A stretch of 64,000 bases of DNA from assembly GCF_004339085.1 (NCBI RefSeq), contig NZ_SMFX01000001.1, positions 2,832,573 through 2,896,572 on the forward strand, in the 5' to 3' direction. The first letter of the stretch is position 1; every line of letters begins with the position of its first letter. The notes below the pieces were generated by a model, which saw only the letters and a list, made by a program, of their open reading frames with translations, did not search any database and was not told where the DNA came from. Positions 57,753 through 63,965 of this stretch are shown here, one piece after another. The stretch is from Thiogranum longum (lineage in GTDB: Bacteria; Pseudomonadota; Gammaproteobacteria; DSM-19610). The position numbers and the translations under genes were made by a program.

Positions 57753-59585
57753 GTGATAAACCAGGATCAACAATCACAGCTTAAGCTGTTAATTGCCAAG
57801 GGCAAGGAACAGGGCTTCCTGACGTATGCAGAAGTCAATGACCACCTGCCCAACGACATTGTCGATCCCGAGCAGATCGAGGACATCATCGGCATGATCA
57901 ACGACATGGGCATCCAGGTGCATGAGACCGCACCGGACGCCGATGCCCTGATACTGTCCAGCGAAACCACTACCACTGACGAAGATGCCGTCGAGGAAGC
58001 CGCCGCCGCACTGGCCACGGTTGACAGTGAATTTGGTCGCACCACCGACCCTGTGCGCATGTACATGCGTGAAATGGGCACCGTCGAGCTGCTGACCCGC
58101 GAAGGCGAAATCGAGATTGCCAAGCGTATCGAAGACGGCCTTGCGCAGGTCTACTCCGCTCTGGCCAGTTACCCGGCATCGTCAGCCCTGTTGCTGACCG
58201 AATACAATCGCGTAACAGCCGGTGAAGCACGCCTCGCTGATCTGTTCAGTACTTTTGTTGACCCCAATGCCGTCGAAGAACCTATCCCGACACCTGCTTC
58301 GCGACAGGCTGAAGCCGAAAAGAAAGCGGATAGCGGTGACGAGGAAGAAGACGAAACACCCGTTGATACCGGACCCGACCCGGAAGAGACTCGCGCGTTC
58401 TTTGCCAAACTGAAAGACCTGCACGAAAATATCCAGGCAGGTCTGACCGGCAAGAGCAAGAACCAGGCAAAACTGAAAAAGCTGCGCGAACAGCTGGTCG
58501 ATCACCTCATGCATATCAAGCTTTCTCCGCGCATGGTGGAAACGCTGACCCAGAACCTGCGCAGGACGGTGAGTCGCATCCGTTCGCACGAGCGCATTAT
58601 CATGAACATCTGTGTGCATGACGCGCACATGCCGCGCCGTGACTTTATAACTTCGTTCCCGGATAACGAAACGGATCTCAAATGGCTGGATTCCCAGATC
58701 AAGGGCGGCCACAAGTACTCAACCGTGCTCGAACAGCACAAGGACGAGATCCTGCGCGCACAGAACAGACTGGTTGCGATTCAGAAAGAAGCCGGCCTGA
58801 ACGTTAGTGAAATAAAGGATATCAATCGCCGCATGTCGATTGGCGAGGCCAAGGCACGTCGCGCCAAAAAGGAAATGGTGGAGGCCAACCTGCGCCTGGT
58901 CATTTCCATTGCCAAGAAATACACCAACCGCGGCCTGCAGTTCCTCGACCTGATCCAGGAAGGCAACATCGGCCTGATGAAGGCAGTCGACAAGTTCGAA
59001 TACCGTCGCGGTTACAAGTTCTCAACCTATGCCACCTGGTGGATTCGCCAGGCCATCACGCGTTCGATAGCTGACCAGGCGCGCACCATTCGTATCCCGG
59101 TGCACATGATCGAGACCATCAACAAGCTGAACCGTATCTCCCGCCAGATGCTGCAGGAAATGGGCCGCGAGCCCACGCCGGAAGAACTGGCCGAACGCAT
59201 GGACATGCCGGAAGACAAGGTTCGCAAGGTGCTCAAGATTGCCAAGGAACCGATCTCCATGGAAACCCCGATCGGTGATGATGAAGACTCACATCTTGGT
59301 GATTTCATCGAGGACTCCACGATCGACTCCCCGGTTGATTCTGCGTCCGGCGCCGGCCTGAAGGAAGCCACACAGGGCGTGCTGTCGGGACTGACGCCGC
59401 GTGAGGCGAAAGTGTTGCGTATGCGCTTCGGTATCGACATGAATACTGATCACACGCTGGAAGAAGTTGGCAAGCAGTTTGATGTTACCCGTGAACGCAT
59501 CCGCCAGATCGAAGCCAAGGCATTGCGTAAACTGCGCCACCCGAGTCGTTCGGAACAACTGCGCAGCTTCCTGGAAATCGAGTAA
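57753..59585 (+). CDS. rpoD: RNA polymerase primary sigma factor RpoD (sigma-70)
   Basis: A 610-residue sigma factor. Region 1.1 is present ([22 protein letters not shown]), region 1.2 has [24 protein letters not shown], an acidic non-conserved stretch is near 185-215, regions 2.1-2.4 are in [44 protein letters not shown], and region 4.2 in [20 protein letters not shown]. The start is a GTG at 57753. It ends the rpsU-yqeY-dnaG-rpoD operon in front of a strong terminator. Confidence 0.98.
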
Positions 59586-59593
59586 GCTCCTGC

Positions 59594-59627
59594 GGGGCGT
59601 CACCACCCCGGGTGACGCCCCTTTTTT
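59594..59627 (+). terminator. rho-independent terminator after rpoD
   Basis: GGGGCGTCACC and GGTGACGCCCC form an 11-base perfect stem with a six-base loop, followed by six Ts. Confidence 0.97.
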
Positions 59628-59694
59628 GCCCGCATACAGCCTTACTCCCGTCTCCCCTTTGGGGTATAAAACCTGATAGAATCCAGCCTGTTTT

Positions 59695-60023
59695 GGGCCT
59701 GTAGCTCAGTTGGTTAGAGCAGGGGACTCATCGAAATGGTGCGTTCGTACAGAAATGTGCGAAATGAACGGGATGAATTCAGGGAAACCTCATCAGTCAG
59801 GCTGGTGGCAACCCTGAGCCAAGCCGGGGGTACACCTTCGGAAGGTGCAGAGACTACCTGAGGACTGGAAGCCGCAAGGCTGCCGAAGCGTCCTTAATGA
59901 CAGGCAAGAGCGTCCCGCACCCTAACAACCCGGTTGAGGGTGATGAGATAGTCCACTCCTGATGGAAATATCAGGGTACAGTGAATCCCTTGGTCCCAGG
60001 TTCGAGTCCTGGCGGGCCCACCA
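59695..60023 (+). tRNA. tRNA-Ile (CAU anticodon) split by a group I intron
   Basis: The 5' exon (59695-59731, 37 bases, GGGCCTGTAGCTCAG to GACTCAT) and 3' exon (59984-60023, AATCCCTTGG to encoded CCA) join into a 77-base tRNA with every helix paired: acceptor GGGCCTG/CGGGCCC, anticodon stem GGGGA/TCCCT, T stem CCAGG/CCTGG. The joined loop is CTCATAA with anticodon CAT. The pattern, including CTTGGTC in the variable region, resembles tRNA-Ile2 (whose C34 becomes lysidine) rather than tRNA-Met; a program could report tRNA-Met or miss the gene. The break lies directly after anticodon base 36. Confidence 0.85.
59732..59983 (+). ncRNA. group I self-splicing intron (IC3-like) in tRNA-Ile(CAU)
   Basis: 252 bases between exons ending in U and beginning AA, with the intron ending in G, as group I chemistry needs. 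The guide GTG at 59739-59741 can pair with the exon CAU, giving the G-U splice pair. Core helices are visible: P2 CGTTC/GAACG (59742-59746, 59766-59770), P4 TCAGGG/CCCTGA starting at 59779, P5 CATCAG/CTGGTG, P7 GACTA (59852-59856) with TAGTC (59949-59953), a P8-like stem CACCCT/AGGGTG (59918-59942), and a 3' hairpin CCTGAT/ATCAGG (59958-59975). The core phrase GGTGCAGAGACTA is typical. It resembles the Azoarcus tRNA-Ile(CAU) intron, known to splice at this site. No ORF inside. Confidence 0.88.
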
Positions 60024-61471: not shown

Positions 61472-61802
61472 TTAGCGGTTCCTTGCACATTTACCGAAAT
61501 TCAAACTTTCTTGATGCGGCGGACATTCTTGTCCACGTAATTATTCATTCTTTGTAGCAGATGCCAGAGTGATTGATAATATTCCCGGCCATCAAGCATT
61601 GCGCAAAAAAACTCTATCCACGCAAATAACACCTAGACCGGCCAATGGCCCTCCCGTATCTATTCCCCTGCGCTATATAAATATCAAAGGCGTAATCCCA
61701 TCTGCGACTCGTAACATTACCTGCGTATTGCATGATGGATTTCAACAGCACAAGACCCTGATTTAACTTTTGGTCTATGGAAAAGGAATGGAGAAGACAC
61801 AC
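61472..61802. promoter_or_regulatory. divergent control region between the AraC-type regulator and metallophosphatase genes
   Basis: 331 bases with no convincing gene; a 65-codon frame at 61569-61766 has no homologous character. GGACA (61521-61525) and TGTCC (61530-61534) form an inverted repeat. The stretch near the metallophosphatase start has a GGAGA ribosome site at about 61790. Promoters of both genes should lie here. Confidence 0.45.
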
Positions 61803-63965
61803 ATGAACAAGAAACGCTACTTAATAGCAACACTACTCGCCAGCAGTATTGCTGCACTCTCGGTGGCCAGCACGAACGCCATCGCCGGGAAAGGGAAAAA
61901 GCCGCCGAAAGGCGGTGGGGGCACCATCACACTTATGCAACTTCAGGATGTGCACGGTCATATTGCGCCCCACTCGTCAATTCTGAAAGATGATGTCATG
62001 GATACCAATGCAGGCGGTGTAGCCAAACTGGCCACGCTCATCAAGCAGGTACGCGCGGACAATCCGAACAACCTGCTGCTTGCAGTTGGCGACACCACTC
62101 ATGGCAGCGCTGAAATGCTGTTTACAATGGGCGACGCCATTATGCCCATGATAAACGCACTGGACATAGATGCCTTTCTTCCCGGCAACTGGGATTTCGG
62201 TTGGGGACCACGCGTATACCGTCAACGTTTCACCCCCAACACCAGCCTGCCACTGTCACCGAATAACCGTACCACTATTGCATGGCAATACCCGGCTGGT
62301 ACCGGTTGCAATGTACCCGGCGGGCTGAATGCAACAACCTATGAAGATTGTCACGTCACCAAGGCAACTTTTCCGACGGTTGCCATCAATCTCTATAACT
62401 ACAACGAAGTTGCAGGCGCGACAACTCCGGGAACACCACTGGGGCCGCGCGTTCATGCTCCCTACATCATCAAGGAGGTCGATGGCAAAAAAGTTGCCAT
62501 TATAGGAATTACCAGTGACGTCGTGCCGCAGCAGGCCCAGGCCTTCAATACCGGTTTCCGTTTCACTATGGGATACAAGGAACTGCCACAGGATATTGCA
62601 GCAGCCAGGGCTGAAGGCGCTGACCTGATTGTCGTACTGTCAGAGCTGGGCCTTGCCAAGAACGTACAACTGGTCAAGGAGTTTCCGGAAATTAACGTAA
62701 TGTTCAGCGGTCATACCCATGAGCGCACCCCGGAAGCTATTGTGATCAACCGCCCTGACGAGAATGGCGATAACTTCGGTATTGTTACCGAAGCCGGCGA
62801 AGATGAATTTCTTGGGCGCCTTGATGTAAAAGTCTCCGGCGGTCGCCTTACATCATGGGAATGGGATCTGATCGAGGCCAGCAGCTCCGTGGTGGAGGAC
62901 CCGGCAATCAAAGCCATGGTCGACGAGCAACGCAAGACTTTTGTCTCCGGACCGGATTTCGAATGTCACACATTCGGCGTGAATGCGTTCCCGTTCGGCA
63001 AAGGACATACCTTGTGTGAACCACTGGATGCCATCGCAGGTTACACCGATCCGACTATCGAGCGGTTTGACGTCCTGGAGGAAGTTGCCAACAACGTTAT
63101 GGTTGATGCTTTCGTAGACCTGGCGCGGGATGTAGACCCGAACCTGAACGCAGACAATTCCCTGTCCACCACCAACGGTTTCCGCTTCGATGTCACCATT
63201 CTGGGACGGGATGATGGCTTTTCAGGCGCTATCACCATCGGTGACCTCTATGCCTACTATCCGATCGGTGCTGCGGTTGCGCTTGCAGAGTTTACCGGGG
63301 GCCGTTTACTGGACCACTGGGAAGGCATCCTGAACAATGTGTTCGACCCCAACCCCTACCGTCAGCGAGGCGGCTGGTTCCTGGGTTTCCCTGCCAACAT
63401 GCACTTCGACCTGGAGCTTAACGATGACTTTCCGCGCACTATCAGTGATGGAAAACGCATAGATCTTGCAACAATCAATGGCAAACGCCTTGACCGTAGC
63501 AAGACTTACACGTTGGCCTCCTGCTATCCACACGGCAACCCCATCGATGAGGTTTGCCGTACATCGGGTGCCACCAACGTACGCTTCATAAACGGAACAC
63601 GGGAAACTACCGGACCTACCGATGTGTTTGGCAACCGCCAACTTGATGTAAACGGGTCTTATGCCATCGTAGCACCTGCCAATTCGGAAAATATATTTGA
63701 CCCGGTACGCTTTAACAATGGCGTCAATCCCACCGGGCCGCTTTTCCTGAAAGTTGCACCGGATAATTTCGTCCATCCGGTGGATGCGCTTCGCCGTTAT
63801 CTGGCTAACAACGACGTCACCACAGTGCAACATGGTCCGGGTCGTGTGAATGCGGTAACCGGTGTACCTGTATCCGAGTTCGGCGGGCCTGGCATTGTTC
63901 AACCGACCCAGGGTGCGGGACCTGCGTGGATGAAACGCGAGTTAGTGGTACCGAAGGAGTACTGA
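61803..63965 (+). CDS. exported metallophosphatase of the 5'-nucleotidase/SoxB superfamily
   Basis: A 720-residue protein with a signal peptide (cleavage near NAIAG, residue 29). The binuclear metal site is visible: LQDVHGH (D49, H51), GDTTHGSAEM (96-105), PGNWDFGWG (127-135) and FSGHTHERTP. The third motif has Trp where 5'-nucleotidases have His (GNHD/E); SoxB thiosulfohydrolases also have Trp there (GHWEF). A 5'-nucleotidase C-terminal domain follows, with insertions making it longer than SoxB (about 570). It may be a nucleotidase or a SoxB-like hydrolase; there are no sox genes here. ATG 61803 is chosen for its signal peptide. Confidence 0.85.
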   Translation: MNKKRYLIATLLASSIAALSVASTNAIAGKGKKPPKGGGGTITLMQLQDVHGHIAPHSSILKDDVMDTNAGGVAKLATLIKQVRADNPNNLLLAVGDTTHGSAEMLFTMGDAIMPMINALDIDAFLPGNWDFGWGPRVYRQRFTPNTSLPLSPNNRTTIAWQYPAGTGCNVPGGLNATTYEDCHVTKATFPTVAINLYNYNEVAGATTPGTPLGPRVHAPYIIKEVDGKKVAIIGITSDVVPQQAQAFNTGFRFTMGYKELPQDIAAARAEGADLIVVLSELGLAKNVQLVKEFPEINVMFSGHTHERTPEAIVINRPDENGDNFGIVTEAGEDEFLGRLDVKVSGGRLTSWEWDLIEASSSVVEDPAIKAMVDEQRKTFVSGPDFECHTFGVNAFPFGKGHTLCEPLDAIAGYTDPTIERFDVLEEVANNVMVDAFVDLARDVDPNLNADNSLSTTNGFRFDVTILGRDDGFSGAITIGDLYAYYPIGAAVALAEFTGGRLLDHWEGILNNVFDPNPYRQRGGWFLGFPANMHFDLELNDDFPRTISDGKRIDLATINGKRLDRSKTYTLASCYPHGNPIDEVCRTSGATNVRFINGTRETTGPTDVFGNRQLDVNGSYAIVAPANSENIFDPVRFNNGVNPTGPLFLKVAPDNFVHPVDALRRYLANNDVTTVQHGPGRVNAVTGVPVSEFGGPGIVQPTQGAGPAWMKRELVVPKEY

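Follow-up and report, generated by a model that had tools for sequence, protein, structure and literature searches.

A group I intron with an IC3-like core and a P7-P3 extension in the tRNA-Ile(CAU) gene of the gammaproteobacterium Thiogranum longum

Within a 64,000-nucleotide stretch of the genome of the sulfur bacterium Thiogranum longum (the window), the gene for tRNA-Ile(CAU) is cut in two: 252 nt stand between the 5' half (59695-59731) and the 3' half (59984-60023). This gene, the parts of its intron, rpoD and the possible -10 element described below are on the forward strand. The 5' half, supported by the sequence and by the ARAGORN cloverleaf of the joined exons, comprises the acceptor strand, D arm, 5' anticodon stem and anticodon, with C34-A35-U36 (59729-59731) ending the exon; an identical 37-nt 5' half occurs in intact genes of sister genomes. 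The 3' half encodes its CCA end and has an intact counterpart in genome G012. When joined, the exons form a standard 77-nt tRNA cloverleaf that has CAU as its anticodon and includes the encoded CCA (ARAGORN). The intervening group I intron (59732-59983) directly follows exon U36, and its last base is G (omega-G, 59983); its boundaries are shared by 122 distinct introns at the same site. An earlier note on this DNA, made from the letters alone, had placed such an intron after the anticodon, and its exon and intron coordinates, exon-terminal U, intron-terminal G and gammaproteobacterial host all proved right.

The conserved neighbour on the upstream side, for the split gene as for its intact counterparts, is rpoD (57753-59585; RpoD, NF004208), and rpoD DNA precedes the tRNA gene in 15 family loci. 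A terminator-like site follows rpoD at 59594-59621. A TAGAAT hexamer (59677-59682) may serve as the -10 element of the tRNA gene and is found at the equivalent position in relatives (e.g. G004, G012, G013, G017 and G019); a scan for consensus promoters found none for this gene. Also near the split gene, at 61770-63965 of the window, a protein with a SoxB/5'-nucleotidase-type domain is encoded, its TIGR04486 score of 164 bits being well under the cut-off of 550.

The Rfam group I model RF00028 (Intron_gpI) matches positions 59719-59975 over its full length (model 1-253) at 83.7 bits (E 8.1e-20; gathering score 50), and the covariance check proposed with the earlier note thus bears out its central claim. 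The fold was assessed on 122 distinct same-site introns of 228-362 nt, drawn from genomes of the class and from the matches listed in named genomes. In a first count on 33 introns of less than 80% mutual identity, 95.8% of cells held standard pairs, compared with 80.0% after shuffling and 33-46% when the fold was slid by one to three columns; changes on both sides were present in 38 of 62 pairs, a number reached in none of 500 shuffles. A second count on 109 non-redundant introns agrees with the first, with helices 90-100% paired, compensatory changes in the variable ones, and P5, P6 and P7 nearly invariant. Chance resemblance to a group I intron was rejected on account of the E value of 8e-20 and this covariation.

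Individual elements of the fold are supported to the same end. The internal guide GUG of P1 (59739-59741) pairs with the anticodon through C34-G, A35-U and a U36-G wobble, and by pattern GGUG is present near the 5' end of all tRNA-Ile introns but one (L193, which reads GGUGU). P2 (59744-59763) consists of 8 bp closed by a GAAA loop (L2, 59752-59755), with compensatory changes in all eight pairs and a GNRA L2 in 109 of 109 non-redundant introns. The 5' strand of P3 (59769-59775) pairs with 59911-59917 (99% paired; compensatory changes in four of seven pairs), while P4 (59779-59784 with 59812-59817) and P5 (59788-59789 with 59807-59808) are 99.5-100% paired; P5a, the register of which is provisional, is 60% paired in the 109 introns. 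P6 and P6a occupy 59818-59846, with P6 100% paired and P6a 96.9% paired vs 77% shuffled. The 5' strand of P7, GACUA (59852-59856), forms the G-binding site with UAGUC (59949-59953) and is invariant in the compared introns. Since neither P5 nor P7 varies, they add no covariation evidence, and P7 is supported by its identity to the family's sequence. In P8 (59918-59942), the five basal pairs are 100% paired and three show compensatory changes. The 5' strand of P9.0 (59955-59957) pairs with 59980-59982, directly before omega-G; in 127 introns, P9.0 is 98.6% paired in register vs 22.8% one base out, in a count that also includes the preceding C with omega-G, and this in-register pairing beside omega-G fixes the 3' splice site. 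P9 (59958-59975) carries a GAAA loop (L9, 59965-59968), is 95.3% paired with compensatory changes in all seven pairs, and its L9 is GAAA in 109 of 109 introns. The GUG guide matching CAU and the helices P2, P4, P5, P7 and P8 had been recognized in the earlier note and are indeed present; P3, P6, P6a, P9, P9.0 and a hairpin between P7 and P3 had gone unlisted there. The intron's lack of a homing endonuclease was also correctly called: its longest stop-to-stop stretch is 61 aa, and no homing endonuclease frame was found in it or in its 122 relatives (longest stretch 120 aa).

The earlier note had attributed the extra length of this intron to a longer P2. It instead lies in an insert of about 50 nt, including a short linker, between P7 and P3. 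This P7.1-like extension (59857-59904), an insertion relative to the Rfam consensus, is composed of a CCUG/CAGG outer stem, an AGGAC/GUCCU inner stem, a conserved UAAUGA bulge and an apical GCAA hairpin. Across 109 introns, the outer stem is 92.9% paired (86.7% shuffled) and the inner stem 97.7% paired (87.0% shuffled), with compensatory changes in six of the nine extension pairs; the bulge, on the 3' side between the two stems, is strongly conserved with consensus UURAUNA. The extension is present in the aligned tRNA-Ile members, and a direct GACUA-GACGG join was found in none of the 122. It also occurs in introns after U36 of tRNA-Thr(UGU) (L213, L215, L218 and L220) and of tRNA-Lys(CUU) (L223), in which the guide follows the anticodon, being GCA(A) and GAG respectively. 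In contrast, P7 runs straight into P3 in the tRNA-Leu(UAA) and tRNA-Arg(CCU) introns of the class and in tRNA-Ile introns inserted at U33. These form a separate branch (support 100/99) of an intron tree that is built on few columns and was used for this separation and for placing the tRNA-Thr introns together and the Planctomycetota introns together.

Introns of subgroup IC3 are recognized by a tRNA host, a compact core, GNRA loops in L2 and L9 and the absence of P5abc. All of these traits are found here. However, the conserved P7-P3 extension is absent from reference IC3 introns (PMC4498298), and the intron is therefore classed by sequence as a group I intron with an IC3-like core rather than a plain IC3 member. 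The extension matches the P7.1/P7.2 trait of subgroup IA in position, and the rest of the core resembles that of tRNA introns. In the phage T4 td intron (IA2), which has a P7.1/P7.2 extension at this position, the host is a phage protein gene, and the Azoarcus and Synechococcus introns have been described as resembling td except for its P7-P3 extension (PMC4498298).

The closest precedent named in the earlier note, the IC3 intron of Azoarcus sp. BH72, interrupts the same tRNA, is likewise small and has a similar core. In vivo it recognizes the triplet CAU, the isoleucine anticodon (PMC6274277), and from this follow an identical insertion site and a guide of the GUG type. By description, not alignment, it is set apart from the present intron by the lack of a P7-P3 extension, where a conserved two-stem hairpin is found here. 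The tRNAscan-SE 2.0 survey reported group I introns from Acidovorax and Burkholderia that share the host tRNA, tRNA-Ile2, and are also missed by tRNA finders (PMC8450103); they belong to other hosts and were compared by description only. The earlier note was right that the intron is of a known kind, but it overstated its rarity, given the Acidovorax and Burkholderia (PMC8450103) and Azoarcus (PMC6274277) precedents and the wide spread of such introns. In a 2014 review, the bacteria given as having group I introns in tRNA genes are cyanobacteria and alpha- and betaproteobacteria only (PMC4033280). As far as the literature searched shows, what is new is this member, the gammaproteobacterial scale, the occurrence in Planctomycetota, the patchiness with clean empty sites, the lack of a homing endonuclease and the conserved P7-P3 hairpin. 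No earlier description of such an extension in tRNA introns was found in that literature; papers outside it may already describe it.

By sequence, the tRNA is tRNA-Ile2, the lysidine-type isoleucine tRNA, and is distinct from the two other CAU tRNAs of the genome, elongator and initiator tRNA-Met. C4:G69 and C5:G68, identity pairs of Escherichia coli TilS (PMC12514573) that neither tRNA-Met has, are both present once the exons are joined. The genome is a single contig of 2,916,906 bases, estimated to be 100% complete. Its tRNA census, combining an RF00005 search (42 matches above cut-off) with inspection of loci, may miss a few genes, as tRNA-Ile(GAU) and tRNA-Ala(UGC) are absent from the typed matches. 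Neither the RF00005 scan nor a search with the 5' half, which hit a single place in the genome with three mismatches allowed, found a second intact tRNA-Ile(CAU) gene, the observation that the earlier note had named as pointing to an inactive split gene. A TilS gene is present (175 bits), in keeping with the earlier expectation of lysidine modification. With no other tRNA-Ile(CAU) found and TilS present, splicing is presumably essential. AUA accounts for 24 of 143 isoleucine codons in six genes of the window. As had been foreseen, tRNA prediction handles the gene poorly: the only tRNAs that ARAGORN finds in the window are tRNA-Phe and tRNA-Gly, so that the split gene is missed, and it names the joined exons tRNA-Met(cat).

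From established group I chemistry, we infer a two-step splicing reaction initiated by guanosine. In the pre-tRNA, pairing of the guide GUG with the anticodon CAU would mark the 5' splice site by a U-G wobble. Guanosine, bound as cofactor in P7, would attack after U36, and the freed 3'-OH of U36 would then attack after omega-G, positioned by P9.0, so that U36 is joined to A37 and the 252-nt intron released. The GNRA loops probably make docking contacts, L2 with P8 and L9 with P5, and the P7-P3 extension probably packs against the P7-P3-P8 domain. The spliced tRNA would be a substrate of TilS, which would form lysidine at C34 and enable it to read AUA. That splicing precedes lysidine formation, as the earlier note had argued, is plausible, because C34 is paired with the guide in the precursor. 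Overall, we put the probability that this is a self-splicing group I intron of 252 nt, removed from tRNA-Ile(CAU) to give an AUA-reading tRNA, at about 95%.

Three other accounts of the locus were weighed. The intron could be a decayed remnant that no longer splices, the split gene being dead and AUA read by another tRNA. Such remnants do occur in relatives, as in L135, where an intact CAU tRNA accompanies a truncated intron. In T. longum, however, every core helix is intact and under compensatory constraint in the family, searches of the genome yielded no second tRNA-Ile(CAU), TilS is kept and AUA is in use in the six window genes, making decay very improbable. It is harder still to credit that the insert is excised by a protein, a tRNA-splicing endonuclease like those of Archaea and Eukarya, instead of by its own catalysis. 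Its place in the anticodon loop does adjoin the canonical archaeal and eukaryotic position 37/38 (PMC4033280), yet a full group I core, invariant P7, guide, P9.0 and omega-G are all present. We know of no protein-spliced tRNA intron that has a group I core, guide, P9.0 and omega-G.

An intron that is catalytic but depends in the cell on a host protein, such as a synthetase- or chaperone-type factor, is a more serious candidate, though we consider it unlikely. Compact tRNA introns with GNRA L2 and L9 loops splice unaided, and both loops are kept here. Against this, protein helpers are known for some other group I introns, among them CYT-18 (PMC3984707), and the conserved bulge of the P7-P3 extension could be either a protein site or a tertiary contact.

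Same-site introns are widespread in the class. Of 369 genomes of the class, 19 contain a match to a pattern for the 3' exon lacking the anticodon U ahead of it, and in every one the exon is preceded by G; Rfam adds four with a variant exon (G202, G062, G055 and G348), giving 23 of 369 in all, about 6% or approximately one in sixteen. In named genomes, at least 119 stretches match the same-site pattern; hosts among the matches listed include Lysobacter, Dyella, Rhodanobacter, Luteimonas, Pseudoxanthomonas, Steroidobacter, Dokdonella, Woeseiaceae, Acidiferrobacterales (Sulfuricaulis) and Granulosicoccaceae and, outside the class, Planctomycetota (Singulisphaera, Tautonia and Paludisphaera). Among the 142 pattern matches, 141 show G ahead of the 3' exon. 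L144, the one that does not, is an unrelated intact tRNA; it was set aside as a same-site intron, and so was L174, a match without a 5' half. Records titled as an archaeon (L186) and an Actinomycetes bin (L112) fall inside gammaproteobacterial branches and were taken as misbinned; a Verrucomicrobia record (L172) sits on a long, unsure branch. A BLAST search of the tRNA plus intron against plasmids returned two matches only, both to the 5' tRNA half.

The survey of related genomes suggested with the earlier note was carried out on a family sample of 20 genomes, which is the whole order sampled. The gene is split in four (G000, G013, G019 and G002) and intact in nine, comprising eight same-genus genomes and G001. 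G009 has an odd, incomplete copy (L200:1501-1760), where the 5' half gives way to unrelated sequence and, some 100 bp further downstream, there is a different CAU tRNA. In an rpoD tree with modest support at several nodes, and with most genomes being drafts, each split lineage stands beside an intact one: G012 by G000/G013, G017 by G019 and G001 by G002. The empty site is clean, the intact locus of G012 being 99.2% identical to the split locus of G013 over 126 bp across the junction when the intron is left out. On these sequences, the patchy pattern fits repeated gain or repeated precise loss.

Other group I introns and intron fragments were encountered in the same material. Introns in tRNA-Leu(UAA) that lack the extension (L038, L039, L243, L245-L247, L249-L251, L253, L256, L257, L229, L235 and L237) include ones from same-genus G013 and same-family G002, and tRNA-Arg(CCU) introns occur in genomes of the class (L241, L242 and L248). 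These share core motifs and tRNA hosts with the T. longum intron, L038 being in a same-genus genome, but differ in their GACUU-GACGG direct join, host tRNAs and separate branch. Two further tRNA-Ile(CAU) introns without the extension (L258 and L240) lie after U33, before the anticodon, in the layout exon GACU, intron ending in G, then CAUAAU. Introns in the tmRNA T-loop (L037, L040, L041, L252, L254 and L255), the first three of them from same-genus G004, G019 and G013 respectively, are also group I introns of tRNA-like genes, but differ in host gene and site (PMC11915505). At L135:1-616, an intact CAU tRNA gene is followed by a truncated intron (P6a onward) and a 3' exon, which looks like a split gene displaced by an intact one. 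In L075, L138 and L087, the 3' part of the intron and the 3' exon stand with no 5' half nearby, possibly as remnants of recombination or island integration.

Taken jointly, these features might define a group I subgroup not previously described, a tentative proposal that we hold at slightly under even odds. Its members would combine an IC3-like core with a two-stem P7-P3 extension bearing the UURAUNA bulge, be inserted after U36 of tRNAs Ile(CAU), Thr(UGU) and Lys(CUU) with the guide changed to the anticodon, lack homing endonucleases, and be patchily distributed in Gammaproteobacteria and Planctomycetota, perhaps because of reverse splicing or because entire tRNA genes were transferred. The conserved hairpin offers structural work a natural variant of the Azoarcus ribozyme. 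Annotation built on tRNA finders such as ARAGORN would show genomes of this kind as without tRNA-Ile2. The spread of endonuclease-free introns becomes testable in sister genomes that either carry or lack the intron at the same rpoD-linked locus. In T. longum, a presumably essential AUA-reading gene of a free-living gammaproteobacterium would hang on a ribozyme.
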